Below, one piece after another: positions 13,188-58,838 of a stretch of 64,000 nucleotides of DNA (position 1 is the first letter of the stretch; the number at the start of each line of letters is the position of its first letter). Source of the DNA: Fischerella sp. PCC 9605 (GTDB taxonomy: Bacteria > Cyanobacteriota > Cyanobacteriia > Cyanobacteriales > Nostocaceae). The position numbers were made by a program, and so were the translations under genes. The DNA lies in NCBI RefSeq assembly GCF_000517105.1, contig NZ_KI912151.1, positions 1,000,125 to 1,064,124 of the forward strand, read 5' to 3'. Below the pieces are notes generated by a model, which did not search any database, was not told where the DNA came from, and was given only the letters and a program-made list of their open reading frames with translations.

Positions 13188-13210
13188 TGTTGGTATCTGG
13201 TTAGTAGTTA

Positions 13211-34794: not shown

Positions 34795-34917
34795 TGCATT
34801 AGAGACTGGGTACTGGGGATTAGGGATTAGGGACTGGGGATTAGGGATTAGGGATTAGGAACCTAGTACCCAATCACCAATCACCAATCACCAATCACCA
34901 ATCACCAATCACCAATT
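34795..34917. repeat. STRR heptad array, two families
   Basis: (GGGATTA)n and (GGGACTG) on the left, (CACCAAT)n, about seven units, on the right. The two halves are partly complementary. They lie in the divergent spacer (34773-35077) between the CSP41-like and GT4 genes, which holds no gene. Confidence 0.8.
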
Positions 34918-42692: not shown

Positions 42693-45600
42693 TTAATGCA
42701 CAACTCCTAAGACGAAATTAACTGTATAAGGTTCCTCCAGAGATTGTTGAGTACTAGCTTTAACGAGATCGAGATAACGACGCAGAGACTGTAATTGTGG
42801 GGGATTAGGGCGATAGGTGAGACTCCCTTGTTTTTCAAACAGTGGTGTGTTGGCGATCGCCTTGTAGTCAAAATTTTCTCTGGAGGTGAGATTAAGCCAG
42901 GAAGAATCTGTACCGTTAGGCATCAAACCAGCAGGCAACTCACCTTCTAAGAAAGCCAGCAGGCGTTGCTGACAACTGCGGGTATTGATACCACGAGCCT
43001 CGAATAACTGGATAATTTCATTGAAAGATAAAGCTCGGTCTGGTATTAATCGCAGTAATTCTGTGAACAAGAAATAATCAGTGTACTGTTGCCTAGGCAC
43101 TTCTAATACCTGGGGATGTAAGGGCAGCATTGCTAAACCGTATGCGACTCGACTGCAACAGGGAGTACCATTTTCACCCAAATACAAATCTTGAATAATC
43201 TTGGCGTTGGGGAGTTTTTGCCGCAGCCAACGAGAAACTGCTCCTAAGCTGGCTGTACCGCCAGTTAGGATGGCTTGATTAATGGCTTCTGTGGGTATGC
43301 CTTTGGCAACCAACAACTTGTTAAGTTCGCGATTGAGGCGACGCACAAATGGCACAAACACATGACTTTCTAAATCTCGCCGCTGCAAGAGCCAGCGTTG
43401 GTCTGCCAATTCCAGTGTAAAAGATTCTTGGTGTTGCAAAATCAACTTCAGGGCTACTGCTGCATCTAAAATTGCTTTGCCGAGAAAAGAACTTTCTAGC
43501 CGCTGCTGCAAGTAAATGCGATCGCTCGTATCTGGTTCTCCTGGCCGAGGTAAAGTTAAATTTTCCAACCCTAAACTAGAAAAGCTCATCCGTTCTATAC
43601 CTGGAATGGCTGGTTGCCATTGCCGGGAATTGTCGTTGTTACTATTTTCCTGGGTGGGATTGTGTGGTTGTCGCCATTTCGTTGGCAATAGCAGCTGGCA
43701 AATAATGTCTTGCTCGATTCCTTTGCCAGCATAAGCAAAACTGTGCAGCATGAAATCGCTGTGAGTCAATTCGTCCAGATTTTCTGGCAAATCAACTAGT
43801 GCCATTTCCGTTGCTACTGCGCCAATATTAATCACAAGAGTGCTACCAATAAGCGGATGGTCGCTGGTTTTAGCAGTTTGAGCATCTTGTCTACTGCCAA
43901 ATTGGATAATTTCGCCACTAGCACCATCGAGTTCGCTAAGCAGACTGGCGATCGCTTCTTCGACAAAAAATACTTGTTGGGGATGCTGGATAATTTTGCT
44001 CACTAGCAAAGCTTCTCGGACATTGAAACGATACTGTTCCGACCAGTTAGAGGGACAGGTGCAAATTACTCCAGCCAAATTATCGATAGCGCTGTGGAAG
44101 CTTTGTTGGTTTAAACCAACCGCCGCCGCAGTTAAACCCAGAGTGGTGCTACTGCGATCGGACTTTAACGTTAGAAGCAATTTCGAGAGCGATCGCACAA
44201 CCCAAACCAAAGGAACCGTCGCCACTTCATTGAGTTGCAATACAGGTTCCCATTTTTGCCGTTCATTTCTATAAGGAAGGGCAATTTGTAGATAAGGCTT
44301 TAACTGCGCGGAGAAAAGATTTGGGGTAGTACTAGTACCTTGTTCCTGTGCTTCTGTTGTTTCTGTTTCCGATTGCTGAGTAGCAGTTGGTGGTAAATAA
44401 ACCTCTGCTGGTAAACGAAACGTTTGCGTTCTAGAAGTTGCTTGAGGTTGATTTTCTGCGAACCAGTAGAGAGGAAATATCTCTGTTGTGGAGCGATTTA
44501 ATAGAGTCGCAGAAATTCCCGTTGTGCCCAAATCAATACCAAGATACCAAACCGAGTCTCGAATCTGACGCTCAATTTCTGTATCAATTACAAAATTGCT
44601 ATCGGAAGGCACAGCAACTTCGTAAGAGTCTGTTGTGGCTTCCTTTTTTTTTTCAGTTTCAGCTAATTGTGGGTTAGATAAATTAGTGGGAAGCTTATTC
44701 TCAACTGCTTCTTGCTGTTCTAAATCAGTAGCAGATTGCAAATACGAATAGACCTGCTCATCAAAGCTAGCCAAATCCCGCTCCAATTGCTGCAACAGTT
44801 CTTCATTCAAAGAAATCTCGGGTATAGCTACATTTTGATTTTCTGCTTGTAACAGTAAATTTTCCTGTGACGAAGCCGGAATAAATTGCTCTGAAGACTC
44901 ATTCAAATTCTGATTGTTAATTGTTGCTGCTTCTGTTTCAGGTTGGTCTGGTGTCGTGCTTGCTGAATTTTCCGCAAATGCTACTTCAGATAACTGCTCG
45001 CTAGTGCTGACATCAATCGACAATTCAGTCAGAAGTGCGATCGTATCAGCAGTAGGCGGTTGTTCAACAGGAAGAGACTCTGTATTTTCTACAAATGTGA
45101 TTTTGTTCCATAAATCTAATAATTGCTCTCTCACAGATCGAGATGCAGCTTGTGTATTCTCTGGGTTAGAGTTGCTCACTTCTAAAAGACCAGCGTCTGG
45201 TTCGTCAAACCAGGGATCGGTCATAGCGACACCAGAATCAGTTGTTTGCACTTCGTTTGTTGAGGGTGCAGGCGTAATATTGGTGGTATTCAACTCATAT
45301 GAGGAGGCCGCATCCACAGATAATTCGTCTATGACATCGGGGATTTCAAAATCGATTTCTTGCAGGAAAAGCTCTAATTCTTTTTGTGGATTTGCTACGG
45401 TTTGAGCATCTACAGATAATTCATTTGTTAGCTCTGGAACTTCAAAATTAATTTCTTGGGGAACAAACTCTGATTCTTGTTCTTGATTAGTTGTAGTTTG
45501 AGAATCCACAGATAATTCATCTATAACATCTGGAATTTCAAAATCGATTTCTTGGAGAACAAATTCTGATTCTTGTTCTTGATTAGTTGTAGTTTGAGCA

Positions 45601-46964
45601 TCCACAGATAGTTCATCTGTGACATCTGGAATTGCAAACTCGATTTCTTGGAGAACAAATTCTGATTCTTGTTCTTGATTAGTTGTAGTTTGAGCATCCA
45701 CAGATAGTTCATCTGTGACATCTGGAACTTGAATATTTTCTTCTTGGGGAGTAATCTCAGAGTTAGCGGCAATTAAATTGTCAATTCCAAACAAACTAGC
45801 ATAAAGTTGATCTACTTCATCACGAATAGATACAGAACTATCTTGGTGTAATTGGTCTGTGGTGCTATCAATAGCTGTGTCTGAAGAGTTTTGCGTATCT
45901 TGATTGAGTTGCAAAAGTACTGCTTCGATATCCGCTGTTGTGGAAGTATCTTCGCTGAGTTGAGCATCAGTTTCTTGAGGATTATTGGTAAGTGAATCTG
46001 ATGTATCAACTGGTGTAGATTTTAATAATTCATCTGTTAACTGATTTCTGGTATTGCCTGATTGTAAAGTTTTTTGCTCAGAGGGAAGCGCTTCTTTTTG
46101 AATGTCAATGGTAAATGGTTCTTGAGAAGCAATTTGTAACTGTACATTATTGATCAAGTTCGTCAATAACTGTTCCCCTTGCAAGCCCTTGCTATACATT
46201 CTTGCTAGGGCTTGGGATAAAGACTCGTGATATGTATGAATATTGCGCTGTAGTGCTTCAAACACTACATTTACAGTTCCATCGAGTGCGAGTAAACGTC
46301 GATCCAACTCGCTAGCAAGGCTTGTTAACCGTTCCAGTTGTTGCTGTGGTTCTAACAAAGGTGAAGCAGAAGCAATTTCTGGATTGCCCTTGTTATGTAT
46401 TATGGAAGAACTACCAATACCAAGTGGAAGTAACTGCTGCGGTGAATTCGGCAATGTTTCCGGCATCTGAAACTGAAAATTGCCATGTAGGCGATTTGTT
46501 AACACCTGCAAAAAATCTGCTATGATTTTTTCCTGGTTTGCTAACTGCTGTGCTAACGAGTAATTTTGCAGTCGCCTTTGCTCGAGTTCCCTAATTTCCT
46601 GTACAAGATTTGCCCGTTCTTCCAACAACGTTCGTAATTCTGCTTGGAGTGGAGCCAGTAATACCGACAGTGCGAGCGTATCAGGTTGGTTAATACTACC
46701 TTGTTCTGAGTAGGTTTGATTTTGCTCTAACAAAAAGGAATTATTTTGATCTGCGAACCTCGATAACAAAGATGATGGCTGCGATTGTAGCTGTTGCTGG
46801 TTTTCTGTGCTGCCTATTTGCGCCTCCAGAAAGTTACGAATTTTTTCTAAAACCTTTCGTGGCTGTTCTCTCTCACTAGAGAGAAACCGAGAGAGGCGCT
46901 TGTTAGTCAATAAACTGTCAATGTCTGCAATTAGTGTTTGAATTTCAGTTGTGCGGGAAGTCAC
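42693..46964 (-). CDS. Large Hsp70-like protein with acidic tandem repeats
   Basis: 1423 residues. N-terminal helical part with coiled coil (~95-165, QAELRTLLEERANLVQEIREL); long acidic low-complexity region (~300-790) containing five ELSVD repeats (~391-551); C-terminal actin/Hsp70 ATPase fold from ~805: YLGIDLGTTGISATL (phosphate loop 1), VINIGAVATEMALV (~1043, diverged phosphate loop 2), and ILTGGTASLGAVSRWL (~1235, adenosine motif). No substrate-binding domain of DnaK type follows. Relatives are cyanobacterial proteins of unknown function; chaperone activity is not supported. It stands alone on the minus strand. Confidence 0.8.
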   Translation of the reverse strand: MTSRTTEIQTLIADIDSLLTNKRLSRFLSSEREQPRKVLEKIRNFLEAQIGSTENQQQLQSQPSSLLSRFADQNNSFLLEQNQTYSEQGSINQPDTLALSVLLAPLQAELRTLLEERANLVQEIRELEQRRLQNYSLAQQLANQEKIIADFLQVLTNRLHGNFQFQMPETLPNSPQQLLPLGIGSSSIIHNKGNPEIASASPLLEPQQQLERLTSLASELDRRLLALDGTVNVVFEALQRNIHTYHESLSQALARMYSKGLQGEQLLTNLINNVQLQIASQEPFTIDIQKEALPSEQKTLQSGNTRNQLTDELLKSTPVDTSDSLTNNPQETDAQLSEDTSTTADIEAVLLQLNQDTQNSSDTAIDSTTDQLHQDSSVSIRDEVDQLYASLFGIDNLIAANSEITPQEENIQVPDVTDELSVDAQTTTNQEQESEFVLQEIEFAIPDVTDELSVDAQTTTNQEQESEFVLQEIDFEIPDVIDELSVDSQTTTNQEQESEFVPQEINFEVPELTNELSVDAQTVANPQKELELFLQEIDFEIPDVIDELSVDAASSYELNTTNITPAPSTNEVQTTDSGVAMTDPWFDEPDAGLLEVSNSNPENTQAASRSVREQLLDLWNKITFVENTESLPVEQPPTADTIALLTELSIDVSTSEQLSEVAFAENSASTTPDQPETEAATINNQNLNESSEQFIPASSQENLLLQAENQNVAIPEISLNEELLQQLERDLASFDEQVYSYLQSATDLEQQEAVENKLPTNLSNPQLAETEKKKEATTDSYEVAVPSDSNFVIDTEIERQIRDSVWYLGIDLGTTGISATLLNRSTTEIFPLYWFAENQPQATSRTQTFRLPAEVYLPPTATQQSETETTEAQEQGTSTTPNLFSAQLKPYLQIALPYRNERQKWEPVLQLNEVATVPLVWVVRSLSKLLLTLKSDRSSTTLGLTAAAVGLNQQSFHSAIDNLAGVICTCPSNWSEQYRFNVREALLVSKIIQHPQQVFFVEEAIASLLSELDGASGEIIQFGSRQDAQTAKTSDHPLIGSTLVINIGAVATEMALVDLPENLDELTHSDFMLHSFAYAGKGIEQDIICQLLLPTKWRQPHNPTQENSNNDNSRQWQPAIPGIERMSFSSLGLENLTLPRPGEPDTSDRIYLQQRLESSFLGKAILDAAVALKLILQHQESFTLELADQRWLLQRRDLESHVFVPFVRRLNRELNKLLVAKGIPTEAINQAILTGGTASLGAVSRWLRQKLPNAKIIQDLYLGENGTPCCSRVAYGLAMLPLHPQVLEVPRQQYTDYFLFTELLRLIPDRALSFNEIIQLFEARGINTRSCQQRLLAFLEGELPAGLMPNGTDSSWLNLTSRENFDYKAIANTPLFEKQGSLTYRPNPPQLQSLRRYLDLVKASTQQSLEEPYTVNFVLGVVH
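45311..45790 (-). repeat. Tandem 96-bp repeat, five units
   Basis: Unit starts (CATCCACAG-like) fall at 45311, 45407, 45503, 45599 and 45695, exactly 96 bases apart, so each unit is 32 codons. Protein motif: (I/V)P(D/E)(V/L)(T/I)(D/N)ELSVD. The 45599 and 45695 units are almost identical in their shared part, showing recent duplication. Confidence 0.95.
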
Positions 46965-49358: not shown

Positions 49359-50564
49359 ATGATTCGCATTTATACCCAAATTGAACAGGGTAAGGCATGG
49401 ACTGCTCGGTATCGCAGTTGTTCACCCGTATTTGCATGTGTGTTAGGTTTTACCGAAACTGGTTTAATTCCCGGAATTTCCGCAGCTGGTCTTACACCCG
49501 AGGATCGAAAATACACAGCAATTGCTGATGCTGAATTTCTCTACTACGGCACAGGAAGAAAACCCCAATATCCCCTACCGCCTCTTACTGCTGGTGCTTC
49601 CCCTGTGTTGATTTCTCGGGCTGTGGTCGAAGCTTTGAATATTCCAATTTATTTATTTAACGCTGGGCTACCCCTACTCCCTGCTATACCAATGATTGAT
49701 TTGGGTGGCACACCTGCTAGGTGTTTAAGTCATGGTCATGCTTTGGAATTGGCAACAGTACAGCACTTGTTAGAACAAGGACTGCTTTGGGGTGAACGGC
49801 TGGCTGCCAATATTCAAAAAGGCTATGTGATATTAAGTGAGTGTGTTGTTGGTGGAACGACAACTGCCTTGGCTATATTAACTGGTTTAGGTATCAACGC
49901 AGTTGGCAAAGTCAACAGCAGCCACCCGGTTTGCAACCACGAGCAAAAGTGGGCACTGGTGCAGGCGGGATTGGAGAAGATGAGGCAAGGGGCAATGGGC
50001 AATGGGCATCGGGCATCGGGCAAGGGTAAAAAAACCAATTCCCAATTCCCAATCCCCAATCCCCCACTCTTGGTTGCTCCTCTCCAACTCGTAGCAGCTG
50101 TGGGCGATCCCATGCAGGTGAGTGTAGCGGGAATGGCGATCGCACTCAGTCGCAGTTGTGGTGTTTTGCTTGCTGGTGGAACGCAAATGCTGGCGGTATA
50201 CGCACTGATAAATGCGATCGCTACAGCTTATGCTCTCTCTTGGCGACCGGAAGAAGTAGTGGTTGGTACTACTCGCTGGGTAGCAGAAGATCCCACGGGT
50301 AGCACTGTTGAATTAGCTCAACTCGTGGGCAGAAGTTGCATAAATCTGGGTGGTATCCCTGTGCCCTTGTTAGCAACTCAGTTAAGTTTTGCTGATTCTC
50401 GTTATCCCCAACTCCAAGCTTATGAGCAGGGTTTTGTCAAAGAAGGTATGGGGGCTGGAGGTGCTAGTATTGCCGCTCATCTCTACAAAGATTGGCAGCA
50501 ACATCAGCTTTTGGAAGCAGTTGAAGCTCAAATTGAGTGGTTGCTTTCAATCAATAGTCATTAG
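49359..50564 (+). CDS. CobT-like nicotinate-nucleotide--dimethylbenzimidazole phosphoribosyltransferase family protein
   Basis: 401 residues. Marks of the TIGR00303/CobT-like branch: EFLYYGTGRKPQYPLPPLTAG, SPVLISRAVV, LSECVVGGTTTALAILTGLG, KVNSSHPVCNHEQKW and LQLVAAVGDPMQVSVAGMAIALSRSCGVLLAGGTQM. Expected role is activation of the lower ligand of cobalamin or a related phosphoribosyl transfer. A ~28-residue insert (near residues 210-238: AMGNGHRASGKGKKTNSQFP and IPNP) of repeat origin interrupts the loop between QAGLEKM and APLQLVA. The frame is kept. No cobalamin riboswitch is seen upstream. Confidence 0.87.
   Translation: MIRIYTQIEQGKAWTARYRSCSPVFACVLGFTETGLIPGISAAGLTPEDRKYTAIADAEFLYYGTGRKPQYPLPPLTAGASPVLISRAVVEALNIPIYLFNAGLPLLPAIPMIDLGGTPARCLSHGHALELATVQHLLEQGLLWGERLAANIQKGYVILSECVVGGTTTALAILTGLGINAVGKVNSSHPVCNHEQKWALVQAGLEKMRQGAMGNGHRASGKGKKTNSQFPIPNPPLLVAPLQLVAAVGDPMQVSVAGMAIALSRSCGVLLAGGTQMLAVYALINAIATAYALSWRPEEVVVGTTRWVAEDPTGSTVELAQLVGRSCINLGGIPVPLLATQLSFADSRYPQLQAYEQGFVKEGMGAGGASIAAHLYKDWQQHQLLEAVEAQIEWLLSINSH
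49985..50070 (+). repeat. In-frame composite heptad insert in CobT-like gene
   Basis: GGGCAATGGGCAATGGGCAT CGGGCATCGGGC, then AAGGGTAAAAAAACC, then AATTCCCAATTCCCAATCCC CAATCCCCC. The same two heptad families in the same order and orientation occur in the U32 gene at 56765-56868. Confidence 0.85.
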
Positions 50565-54898: not shown

Positions 54899-56068
54899 AT
54901 GAATCTCAGTATTGCATACCTAGCTCAAGGCAAACTGTATCTTAAATTTCATCAAGCACCCGTGCGTGAGTTTGAAAGTCAGTTTGGGCAAACAGTTCAG
55001 GAAAGAATGTTACAAACACAGCAACGCAAGGCTTGGAAGAATCGAGGCTTAATGGAAATGATGTTACCTCCTGGCGTTGTAGAGCAGATGCAGCAGCAAC
55101 CGGAAGCAAAGCTGAATGTGGTTATCAGTAGTCTTTGCAAAGGAGAAAAAGGCAAGTTAATTTATGCGTTAGAAGCAGGAGATGTGGGTGGTATCTTTAC
55201 GCTCGAACCTTCACGCGAGCATGAACAACGCCTCTTTCACAATGCCGATTTTCAGGTGGGATATCTGAGTTTTCACCCCGAACGGGAAATCATCGCCTGT
55301 GCGACTATTTACCGCAATGGTATTGCCAATATCGCCATGATGCCGTTGAATGGTTCCCGTCCTCATGATGTCACCGAGGGTGATTCCATCGACTTAGCGC
55401 CTTGCTGGATTCCTGGAAAAAATAAAGCGTTGGTGTTTCAGTCAGCAGGAATTGGGCGCAACAGCCAAGGATACGTGTGCGATCGCGCTCCTTTCAGCAT
55501 CGAAAAACTAGACTGCGATCGCCAAGAAATTACTACTTTAGTAGCCGATCCCAAATACGATTTCTTGGGGCCGCGAATGAAGGCTGACGGCACACTGTAT
55601 TATATTCGTCGCCCCTACCGTCCCAAACAACAGGTGAACTTGCTGCGGTGGCTGCGGGAAATTTTGCTTATCCCTTTCCGTCTTGCCTATGCTATTTTTC
55701 AATGGCTTAACTTCTTTACCCAAATATATACAGGTAAGCCTCTAATGGCAGCAGGTACGCGCAAATCCCTCGATCGCAAACAAATGAGAGTATGGGGAGA
55801 GCTAATTACTCCCGAAATGATAGGGGATAACAAGTTTAGTGAAACAGAAGCCCCTGCTTGGGTGCCGCGCTCGTGGCAGTTGGTGCGACAATTAACAAAT
55901 GGTGTCGCCGAAGTAGTTGCAGAGGGGGTTTTATCCTTTGATTTGGGAGAAGACGGCACGATTGTGTATACCAACGGCAGTGGAATTTACGCGATTCATC
56001 CCGATGGTAATTTAGAGCGTTTATTTGTTGGTAACTCGATTGAATTTGTGGCGATCGTTAATGGGTAA
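54899..56068 (+). CDS. TolB-like beta-propeller protein
   Basis: 389 residues from the ATG at 54899 (MNLSIAYLAQGKLYLKF); a GTG at 54875 is also in frame. Repeated propeller-like strands: YLSFHPEREIIACATIYRNGIANIAMM, DLAPCWIPGKNKALVFQSAGIGRNSQG, FLGPRMKADGTLYYIRRPYRP, GEDGTIVYTNGSGIYAIHPDG. A hydrophobic segment (REILLIPFRLAYAIFQWLNFF, ~255-275) may associate with membrane. Function unknown. Its 3' end overlaps the convergent U32 gene by 11 bases. Confidence 0.7.
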   Translation: MNLSIAYLAQGKLYLKFHQAPVREFESQFGQTVQERMLQTQQRKAWKNRGLMEMMLPPGVVEQMQQQPEAKLNVVISSLCKGEKGKLIYALEAGDVGGIFTLEPSREHEQRLFHNADFQVGYLSFHPEREIIACATIYRNGIANIAMMPLNGSRPHDVTEGDSIDLAPCWIPGKNKALVFQSAGIGRNSQGYVCDRAPFSIEKLDCDRQEITTLVADPKYDFLGPRMKADGTLYYIRRPYRPKQQVNLLRWLREILLIPFRLAYAIFQWLNFFTQIYTGKPLMAAGTRKSLDRKQMRVWGELITPEMIGDNKFSETEAPAWVPRSWQLVRQLTNGVAEVVAEGVLSFDLGEDGTIVYTNGSGIYAIHPDGNLERLFVGNSIEFVAIVNG

Positions 56069-58838
56069 CAGAACCACGAGTTACCCCTAACTGATTTTGC
56101 AGCTTCAACTCGCGCCAAAGTTGGGAGCCTGTTATTTCGCCATGCAGTAATTGTTGGTAGTGATGTATCGTTTGAGTCACTTGCTCAGGAGTTTCATTCA
56201 CAAATTCAATCCGGAAGTGTTGTAAATCAAGCTTTATCAGGCGCTGTACGTACTCAGCACCAGTTTGGGCAGTGCCGTTAAATACCGTATTTCGACAACC
56301 AGCATCAGCATGGAGGATGTGTTCTGTGCCAACGCGAGATTCCTTCGGAAACGCTCCGCGAACGCGCAATTTCACCTCATGTTTCTCGCAAGGTCGCCCG
56401 CAATTGCGAAAATCCGTTCCCGTAGATAGAAAAGCACAAAATACACAATGCTCCATGTGGAACATCGGCATATGCTGATGGATTGTCACCTCAAACCAAT
56501 CAGGAGGGCTACTCTTGAGCAAGTCTTCCAGTTGGTTAATGTTCAGGTCATAGGATGCTGTCAAGCGTTCCAAACCAAACTGATTTTTCAAGAAGTCCGC
56601 TGTTAACGGGTTAGCAACATTGAGAGAAAAATCCCCAACGCAACGGTCATGAGCAAAGAACTGGAGGTGGTCATAATTCCGTACTAAATACCCATCCGCC
56701 TCACAAGCACGTACTTGCTGCAAAATCCAGTTTTCCCCAGGTTTGGTAATTCGGGGTGGTGCTACCCAGATGGTGGGGATTGGGGATTGGGGATGGAAAT
56801 TGGGAATTGGTTTTCTTACCGATGCCCGATGCCCGATGCCCGATGCTCCTTGTCCTTTTTCTTGTCGCTGGCGTACCATCTCCACCGCTTCGCGATACTT
56901 GCGGGGGTCTTCAAATTCACAGTAGATAGTCTCAATTCCAGCTTGGAGTGCGGCTTGGAGTTGCTTGAGGTTGCGTACTAAAACGATAAGAGATGGGGTG
57001 GTGGGGTGGTTGGGAGATGGGGAGGGGAGTAAGTCTGAGAGGGAAGCGCTTGGATTTATTTGCCAGCGTTTGGGTTTTTTTCGCAATTCCTCCAACTGGG
57101 TGACAATTTCCCGCCGCATCCGGTTTAACTCACTTACGGGTAGCATCAGTGCATTATTTAGGTTATTTGTCAAGTTACCCAAACGAAAAGGAGTATTGCC
57201 GAGACGACCGAATTGTTCGTGCAATCGTTCTGTTGTTAGGGGTTTGGTATGGGCTTCTACTAGGGGTATTGAGGATTCGACCTGGACGACGTGACCGAGT
57301 TCATCACGGGCGATCGCCACTAAATTTTGCCCAACTTCTCCATGCACCTCAATGTTAATCGGTCGCAGAAATTGCGGCGTATCTCCAGCAAAACTCTGAC
57401 GCAATTGCTTATCCAGTTCTGGATCGCTTGTTTTCCAGACCTTATCACCCACATGCACTCGCCGCCAATTCACATCACGTCGCCCAAAGGTCAAAACAGT
57501 TTCCTTACCCTTGCGTTCTACCGCGTAGATGCGACCGCCTTCTTCCTTCGCTTCCGGATGACCGCAGTCAAATACAACACCATCTCCTGCTTTTACTGGT
57601 GCTTTTAGCCGTACCGTCACTTGTTCATTTCCAATGCGGGTTACTTCTCCTAGATAAACCCCCCGTTTTTTACCAAAGCGGGCATGAACCAATTCTTGAT
57701 TATTAATTCCACGGAACCAGCCAGTATAAATTCCACGCGAAAAAGCCATCTCTAAGTTGTAGCGTTCTTGATCCCCCCAACCCACGCCAGTCGCTACAAC
57801 GGAGGAGCCACTGCGGTGGACGGGTTCCCCGGCATAAAGCACGTGGCGTGAAACCTCCGCAACGCGCTGGCTCCCCTTAACAAGGGGGGCTTTGTTGTTC
57901 CCCCCTTTTAAAGGGGGGCTAGAAGGGATCTGCTCCATCGCTGCGTCTTCTTTCCCCTCTTCCTCTTCCAACTCCGCCCTCACCCGATCCAACGCTTGCC
58001 GATAAACACGAGTGACATTAGCAACATACTCTGGAGACTTCAACCGCCCTTCAATCTTGAGACAAGCTACGCCTGACTTCACCAAATCGGGCAAAACCTC
58101 TAACCCAGCTAAATCTTGCGGACTGAGAAGGTATTTTTTATCGCCCAAATTCACAGTTTCCCCATCTGCGATTAAATCGTAGGGCATCCGGCAAGCTTGG
58201 GCGCATTCGCCCCGGTTAGCAGAACGTCCTCCTAATGCTTCACTCGTCAAACACTGCCCGGAATAAGCTACGCACAGCGCCCCATGAACAAACACTTCCA
58301 GAGGTAAGGAAGTTCCTCTGTACGCCAACTGACTTTGAATTTTGTTGATTTCGTTGAGAGAACATTCCCGCGCAAGCACAACTAAATTACACCCGAGCGA
58401 TTCCGCAAATTCCACACCTGCGGCACTCGTGATAGTCATCTGTGTAGATGCATGAATAGGGAAATCAGGAGAAATGTGGCGAATGAGACGGCAAATACCG
58501 ATATCCTGGACAATTACTGCATCTACACCCGCCGCAATAATTGAGCGAATATATTGTTGTGCTTCTCTCAGTTCTTGGGGAAAGACGAGTGTATTGAGAG
58601 TGACATAGCCCTTTACACCTCTGCTGTGCAAGTACTCCATCAATTCGGGCAAATCCGCCTCAGTGAAGTTTTCTGCCCGCATCCGCGCGTTAAACCGATC
58701 CAAACCGAAGTAAATTGCATCTGCACCATTTTCGACAGCGGCTTTCGCACATTCCCAATTTCCTGCGGGGGCGAGGAGATCTGGGCGTTGGAGGGCGGGT
58801 GAAGTGGTTTCGGTGAGTTGTTGGAAATCGGCTTTCAT
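56058..58838 (-). CDS. U32-family peptidase (collagenase-like) with DUF3656
   Basis: 926 residues, longer than usual because of repeat inserts. U32 signature E-x-F-x2-GA-x-C-x4-G-x-C as EVFVHGALCVAYSGQCLTS, with cysteine-rich ANRGECAQACRMPYDL and the C-terminal HCVFCAFLSTGTDFRNCGRPCEKH; further ADAGCRNTVFNG. Members act in tRNA/rRNA hydroxylation (TrhP/RlhA type) with an Fe-S or cysteine site; which substrate applies is unknown. Three in-frame inserts sit at ~292-356, ~657-691 and ~823-832. No frameshift is seen. Confidence 0.9.
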   Translation of the reverse strand: MKADFQQLTETTSPALQRPDLLAPAGNWECAKAAVENGADAIYFGLDRFNARMRAENFTEADLPELMEYLHSRGVKGYVTLNTLVFPQELREAQQYIRSIIAAGVDAVIVQDIGICRLIRHISPDFPIHASTQMTITSAAGVEFAESLGCNLVVLARECSLNEINKIQSQLAYRGTSLPLEVFVHGALCVAYSGQCLTSEALGGRSANRGECAQACRMPYDLIADGETVNLGDKKYLLSPQDLAGLEVLPDLVKSGVACLKIEGRLKSPEYVANVTRVYRQALDRVRAELEEEEGKEDAAMEQIPSSPPLKGGNNKAPLVKGSQRVAEVSRHVLYAGEPVHRSGSSVVATGVGWGDQERYNLEMAFSRGIYTGWFRGINNQELVHARFGKKRGVYLGEVTRIGNEQVTVRLKAPVKAGDGVVFDCGHPEAKEEGGRIYAVERKGKETVLTFGRRDVNWRRVHVGDKVWKTSDPELDKQLRQSFAGDTPQFLRPINIEVHGEVGQNLVAIARDELGHVVQVESSIPLVEAHTKPLTTERLHEQFGRLGNTPFRLGNLTNNLNNALMLPVSELNRMRREIVTQLEELRKKPKRWQINPSASLSDLLPSPSPNHPTTPSLIVLVRNLKQLQAALQAGIETIYCEFEDPRKYREAVEMVRQRQEKGQGASGIGHRASVRKPIPNFHPQSPIPTIWVAPPRITKPGENWILQQVRACEADGYLVRNYDHLQFFAHDRCVGDFSLNVANPLTADFLKNQFGLERLTASYDLNINQLEDLLKSSPPDWFEVTIHQHMPMFHMEHCVFCAFLSTGTDFRNCGRPCEKHEVKLRVRGAFPKESRVGTEHILHADAGCRNTVFNGTAQTGAEYVQRLIKLDLQHFRIEFVNETPEQVTQTIHHYQQLLHGEITGSQLWRELKLQNQLGVTRGSVTH
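56340..56372 (-). repeat. Short in-frame insert near the U32 catalytic end
   Basis: GCGCGTTCGCGGAGCGTTTC CGAAGGAATC encodes about ten residues (VRGAFPKES) between KLR and RVGTEHILHADAGCRN, which are normally contiguous as KLRDRVG. The unit is of the GCGGAGCG-type dispersed repeat. Confidence 0.55.
56765..56868 (-). repeat. In-frame composite heptad insert in U32 gene
   Basis: In gene sense: GCATCGGGCATCGGGCATCG G, then TAAGAAAACC, then AATTCCCAATTTCCATCCCC AATCCCC. Encodes GHRAS as in CobT. Residues ~657-691 (GQGASGIGHRASVRKPIPNF). Confidence 0.85.
57770..57965 (-). repeat. In-frame insert of three repeat types in U32 gene
   Basis: About 65 codons between an acidic linker (ELEEEEG) and DQERYNLEMAFSRG. 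DNA contains GGGGGAACAACAAAGCCCCC-type hairpin units (CTCCCCTTAACAAGGGGGGC), CCCCCCTTTTAAAGGGGGGC, and a unit with GAAACCTCCGCAACGCGCTG G. Confidence 0.7.

Follow-up and report, generated by a model that had tools for sequence, protein, structure and literature searches.

Repeats of the RPE (Rickettsia palindromic element) kind, which can be read in frame within proteins, are best known from Rickettsia. The tandem heptad repeats of cyanobacteria go under the name STRR, which is applied here to the composite described below. In cyanobacteria, G-rich 7-base units were described as dispersed, mostly intergenic (68% of the heptad repeats in PCC 7120) and in some cases intragenic, four G-tracts per array being common and linked to G-quadruplexes, while paired, inverted repeats were few in PCC 7120 (Rehm et al., 2015, PMC4692102). 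RPE are short, non-autonomous and 105–146 bp in length, with inverted repeats at their termini and a long stem-loop predicted; some copies are intergenic, and others are fused in frame to conserved protein genes (PMC2229807). REP elements of the GTAG and CGTC families are likewise small and dispersed, some lying in coding regions and some in cyanobacteria (PMC3733652). Replacement at a tolerated site was reported for the P6b stem of the Nostoc tRNA-Leu intron, where seven-base repeat classes were independently and repeatedly exchanged (PMC4476775). Among the titles and abstract openings listed by literature searches that covered few subscription journals, none reported in-frame heptad composites in cyanobacterial enzymes; absence from print is not claimed.

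The window, i.e. the whole stretch of 64,000 nucleotides analysed here, is part of the 8.08 Mb genome of a filamentous cyanobacterium, the nearest named relatives of which belong to Fischerella according to a quick tree of CobT. Two of its genes carry a heptad composite in frame:

49359–50564, plus strand: CobT-family phosphoribosyltransferase gene (ORF; NF003373, E 1.4e-183; TIGR00303, E 1.7e-113)
49984–50026, plus strand: G-rich heptad arm of CobT, with GGGCAAT, GGGCATC and GGGCAAG (sequence; TRF 49984–50023, period 7)
50027–50034, plus strand: centre of CobT, TAAAAAAA, flanked by GG and CC (sequence; family alignment)
50035–50065, plus strand: C-rich heptad arm of CobT, with CCAATTC and CCAATCC (TRF 50035–50064; exact pattern match)
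56058–58838, minus strand: U32-family gene with the second copy (ORF; PF01136, E 1e-89; PF12392, E 9.2e-28)
56774–56810, minus strand: C-rich heptad arm of U32 (TRF 56774–56810)
56811–56818, minus strand: centre of U32, TAAGAAAA, flanked by GG and CC (sequence; exact core match)
56819–56850, minus strand: G-rich heptad arm of U32, with GGGCATC (TRF 56819–56846, CCGATGC x4)

The CobT gene (49359–50564) matched none of the Pfam families at E 0.001. Its insert (49984–50065, plus strand) reads GGCAAG-GGGCAAT-GGGCAAT-GGGCATC-GGGCATC-GGGCAAG-GG-TAAAAAAA-CC-AATTCCC-AATTCCC-AATCCCC-AATCCCCC, and that of U32 (about 56774–56850, minus strand) reads GGGCATC heptads-GG-TAAGAAAA-CC-AATTCCC-AATTTCC-ATCCCC-AATCCCC-AATCCCC. 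Both share one architecture, with G-rich heptads, a centre of the form GG-TAARAAAA-CC and C-rich heptads. The order of the arms is identical on the two coding strands and opposed on the plus strand of the window. An alignment spanning arms and centre gave a mean column identity of 84% (117 columns including flanks), and both ORFs run uninterrupted across the insert. The claim of an earlier note on this DNA, that the two genes carry one composite in the same order, is thus borne out by sequence, alignment and ORFs. Its limits for the inserts (49985–50070 and 56765–56868) were corrected to about 49984–50065 and 56774–56850, and its description of each arm by a single unit (GGGCATC, CCCAATC) was right about heptads, while each arm in fact holds several heptad variants. 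It had also stated that both genes encode GHRAS before diverging, and GGGCATCGGGCATCG is indeed translated as GHRAS in both. The peptides diverge afterwards because an extra heptad in CobT (GGGCAAG) shifts the frame of the C-rich arm.

Searched through the window's genome at up to three mismatches, GGTTTTCTTACCGATGCCC, which comprises the centre and its first heptad, was found at 23 places, against 2 for the reversed control. Heptad arrays surround 21 of them; the remaining two (L197, L198) are outside any such array and were set aside as chance matches. The 21 copies have unique, unrelated flanks and a core common to all, with the consensus GGGCAAT-GGGCAAG-GGGCATG-GGGCATC-GG-TAAGAAAA-CC-AATTCCC-AATTCCC-AATCCCC-AATCCCC. 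Many inner columns of this 68-column consensus are identical in 20 or 21 of the copies. The outer heptads vary, and copies measure 55–193 bp with ends set by a heptad-walking rule. The same core was sought in 192 genomes of the family, including the window's own and drawn evenly from a larger group. At up to two mismatches it occurs at 20 places in the window's genome, and 12 of the 191 others were positive, with 13 matches together, 12 of these at two mismatches. This near-confinement points to an expansion in the window's lineage. The CobT and U32 inserts are therefore copies of one lineage-specific composite repeat family. The suspicion that the composite is mobile or copy-prone held for copying, given 21 places with unrelated flanks; mobility in the sense of a transposon found no support, on grounds given below. 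Another small dispersed repeat, approximately GCGGTCGTGGGGGCCCCGAGTTCCCC, was seen in or beside C-rich arrays, among them four family copies (L179, L180, L186, L192) and five further loci (L218, L220, L223, L225, L228).

By unit and by spread the composite belongs to the cyanobacterial heptad (STRR/G4) repeats. With those repeats it shares dispersed tandem 7-base units in mostly intergenic pairs and four G-tracts. At least one arm has four G-tracts, and is G4-capable by sequence, in 18 of the 21 copies, both arms in 14. To what is described for those repeats it appears to add a defined composite structure, in which the centre is constant and not itself a repeat and the arms follow a G-first/C-last order, as well as copies read in frame within conserved genes.

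The G-first rule was followed in a sample of 864 kb, made of the window and forty 20 kb stretches of the genome. It holds 445 period-7 arrays, seven being the commonest period, while no period-7 row appeared among the 10 periods listed for shuffled sequence. Of 144 neighbouring array pairs within 100 bases, 88 run from G-rich to C-rich and none from C-rich to G-rich, 17 pairs join arrays of the same kind and 39 include an array whose composition is mixed. Neither the CobT nor the U32 copy counts towards the 88, because each has an arm that was classed as mixed. In four relatives (100 kb each) G-rich-first pairs outnumbered the reverse by 17 to 2. Such a pair of a different family lies in the window:

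34798–34916, strand not assigned: G-rich-first, C-rich-last heptad pair of a different family, folding better than shuffles (z -2.95)

Further G-rich-first, C-rich-last pairs in the window start at 13200, 24473, 30547, 49284 and 52741. Where the spacer was at most 35 bases (73 pairs), the heptad class of the two arms was equal in 51 pairs and different in 22, and none of 5000 permutations reached the observed score of matching by class. Ongoing copying from arm to arm within a locus was considered and rejected, since a locus' own arms match no better than swapped ones (four classes tested). Recurrent centres were also seen between other paired arrays (L208, L217, L221, L231, L239 and others), of the types AAAGG-TTAATAAATT-CCTTT and TTATGAA-ATT-TTCATAA; they suggest further composite families. 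In the same 864 kb, the repeat resembling GCGGTCGTGGGGGCCCCGAGTTCCCC has 6 copies at up to four substitutions. An unrelated tandem repeat, a 96-base unit present 4.4 times, occupies positions 45310–45730 of the window within an ORF of 1423 residues on the minus strand.

A hairpin could not be retained as the defining property of the family. Compared with dinucleotide shuffles, the copies in CobT and U32 fold less well (z +1.57 and +2.88), and z fell below -2 in 5 of the 21 copies and in none of the seven intragenic ones. Other pairs with arms of the same class often fold, with z below -2 in 15/17, 6/12, 9/12, 7/8 and 2/2.

Seven of the 21 copies lie within open frames of at least 350 codons, in conserved genes, as foreseen in the earlier note, which held that the composite can become protein. 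Besides CobT and U32, these encode the o-succinylbenzoate synthase MenC (copy between the N-terminal match and the barrel match), a hybrid histidine kinase (within the match to the ATPase domain), an ABC-type protein (separating the two ATPase cassettes), a beta-ketoacyl-ACP synthase and a PfaA-like synthase (between the acyltransferase and carrier matches). An eighth candidate, L186, was not counted, being crossed by a frame of 92 codons. The family consensus is open in five of six frames. The tolerance had been attributed to a stop-free 7-base unit. This is correct for heptads of the GGGCATC class, as GGGCATC, GGGCAAT, GGGAATT, GGGGATT and GGGGACT have stops in none of the six frames, whereas GTTAGTG, GTTAGTA, GAATTAT and AGTCATT have them in all six. 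Family copies are commoner in genes than other close array pairs (7/21 against 2/70, p 0.0004), although the frame criteria differ between the two counts and the contrast is partly built in, since many other heptads have stops in every frame. Of the 73 close pairs of the 864 kb sample, 4 lie inside ORFs of at least 150 residues, and the family is exceptional at 7 of 21. The composite is nearly stop-free, has no fixed outer ends and is kept in frame at seven places. In its features it resembles RPE in its occurrence in frame in conserved genes (7 of 21 copies). It differs from them in its length range of 55–193 bp, its tandem heptads and its folding, mostly no better than that of shuffles.

The CobT insertion site was then compared among relatives. 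The loop was extracted from all 110 loci examined, 30 including the window's and 80 named, leaving 105 after de-duplication, and its length ranged from 8 to 63 residues. At least 18 residues were counted in 75 of 103 distinct loops. Among these long loops, 45 showed a periodicity of 7, 8 or 9 bases (300 shuffles, p < 0.01), against none of 405 control windows of equal length taken from other parts of these loci (100 shuffles). A G-rich first half was followed by a C-rich second half in 61 of the 75, with the reverse in one; the control windows were G-rich-first in 82 of 405 and reversed in 108. As DNA hairpins the long loops are weak, 19 of 75 falling below z -2 against mononucleotide shuffles. 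The units differ, with heptads (AATGCCC, AAAATCC, AGCAGGG, AATTACC), octads (ATCTCCCC, CCCCGCGT) and nonads (AGCAGGGGG), and loop sequences differ even between sister species. It had been asked in the earlier note whether relatives' CobT lack the insert; instead of a plain absence, the loop is often filled by other tandem repeats.

On a quick CobT tree computed without the loop columns, with 34 of 102 inner branches open, at least 27 unit changes were counted among the 41 rows, out of 105, in which a unit was recognised, a generous figure because some changes link close variants of one unit. Another 46 rows have a loop of more than 10 residues and no unit by the rule of the tree script, and two groups of rows retain a loop of 8 residues. 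Many gains of the loop itself found no support, as short versus long requires just two changes; repeat content alone turns over. Four Fischerella rows cluster with the window (support 94), and four different units occur within this group. One Fischerella CobT insert among these has a different core; of four genomes of the genus, three contain it, at 2, 3 and 3 places, and the window's genome has no such place (up to three mismatches). A Nostoc core from CobT loops was found in 26 of the 192 genomes, at 1–4 places each, with reversed controls at zero. It was not accepted as a second expanded core, being restricted to a clade and hardly expanded, which weakens the idea of a large family behind each loop repeat. 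The loop of CobT acts as an acceptor of repeats throughout the heterocystous cyanobacteria. The Nostoc tRNA-Leu intron offers a likeness in the replacement of repeat classes at a tolerated site and differs in that an RNA stem is affected rather than translated protein loops.

In structures of archaeal homologues (3u4g, 3l0z) 8 to 10 residues stand at the insert site. A CobT model made from 25 sequences (mean pLDDT 76.5, pTM 0.84) has residues 214–237 at pLDDT under 50, between helices 194–213 and 241–248, and three shorter low-confidence stretches elsewhere. The low predicted confidence and the short archaeal loop fit a tolerated loop in CobT. The loops of MenC, ketoacyl synthase and U32 resemble that of CobT in their behaviour, more weakly. 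Among loops of at least 18 residues, G-rich-first order, reverse order and periodicity were counted, respectively, in 11, 3 and 8 of 25 for MenC; 7, 2 and 6 of 23 for ketoacyl synthase; 3, 0 and 5 of 8 for the middle loop of U32; and 3, 3 and 8 of 15 for its first loop. The U32 gene (56058–58838, minus strand) has a second in-frame insert at about residues 313–361, the DNA of which contains CCCCCCTTTAAAAGGGGGG. Six more places in the genome translate similarly (60–94% identity), and a stricter DNA search of the 864 kb found this copy alone.

The reading preferred here, with moderate confidence, is that an STRR-type composite was copied to about 21 places, spread by template switching during replication and was kept in tolerant loops. 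A polymerase would stall in a G-rich, G-quadruplex-capable array, switch to another array, copy arm, core and arm, and switch back. Slippage would afterwards lengthen or shorten the arms in 7-base steps. Copies in genes would persist given a tolerant protein loop, a net length that is a multiple of three and an open frame. Such an in-frame filter would account for the different repeats per genus in the CobT loop, and less well for those in MenC, ketoacyl synthase and U32. Template switching alone leaves unexplained the G-first rule and the arrival of the first heptads in loops that lack them in relatives; whatever the mechanism, the strict order of 88 to 0 constrains it sharply.

The strongest rival is a miniature element moved by a transposase, of Y1/RAYT type or other, REP- or RPE-like and with ends blurred by slippage. 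It would suit a lineage-specific burst at unrelated sites and an ordered core, and 13 Y1_Tnp places are present in the window's genome. However, the exact core was found in none of these 13 loci (about 3.1–3.4 kb each; Y1 is the sole transposase family checked), and some heptad array in six. Target-site duplications, which a transposon might have left, gave no signal: direct repeats in the flanks do not exceed those of shuffled sequence in length, the observed mean being reached in 68 of 200 shuffles, although heptad-walking ends could hide a short duplication. The variable ends of the copies and the poor folding of the family also speak against such an element. From REP the composite differs by the lack of a GTAG or CGTC tag (none in the 68-column consensus of the 21 copies, by eye), by the absence of its core from Y1 loci and by having heptad arrays where REP have a single short stem. 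Heptads resembling GGGACT...AGTCCC stand at the ends of some intergenic copies; they may be what erosion has left of the terminal repeats of a genuine mobile element, and they lend an element with blurred ends some probability. Overall, a transposase-moved element is considered unlikely, with a real chance of being right. The missing duplication signal, the variable ends, the Y1 loci without core and the mixed arms argue against an ordinary transposon and fit template switching.

It is much less credible that the inserts are adaptive, as a useful loop or a frame-switching device. The GGTAAG strand, rich in Gly, Lys, Asn and Pro codons, is read by six of the seven in-frame copies, four in one frame and two in another, with MenC alone on the opposite strand (p 0.019 against two of five open frames), and a change of one heptad would shift the frame. 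On the other hand, family copies are rarer in genes than chance (7/21 against 0.648, p 0.003), where stop-to-stop frames of 150 codons or more, taken with margins of 30 codons and with spurious frames counted in, enclose 65% of the positions of the 864 kb. Seven unrelated proteins are affected, and both the divergence of loops between sister species and the 8-residue loop of two CobT groups speak against adaptation. Even more improbable is that local slippage gave rise to the inserts of CobT and U32 independently, in G- and C-rich loops, their likeness being superficial. Unrelated tandem repeats do fill such loops in many genera, but a non-repeat centre and ordered arm variants are common to the 21 loci and nearly absent from the 191 other genomes. 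An assembly or sequencing artefact, to which tandem repeats are prone, is negligible in view of seven preserved open reading frames, unique flanks at 21 loci and similar loops in independently sequenced relatives.

One cyanobacterial genome thus holds a repeat family that is young and lineage-specific, some of its copies being intergenic and others in frame, and other repeats occupy the same enzyme loop in many related genera. Together they make the spread and the protein-making of short non-autonomous repeats testable in culturable, free-living bacteria. As a tentative generalisation, which may well prove too broad, coding-competent G-first/C-last composites would keep forming lineage-specific families in heterocystous cyanobacteria, spreading without a dedicated transposase and supplying core enzymes with new peptide loops at the same tolerant positions. 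If true, selfish DNA would be a lasting supply of protein sequence in bacteria other than Rickettsiales.
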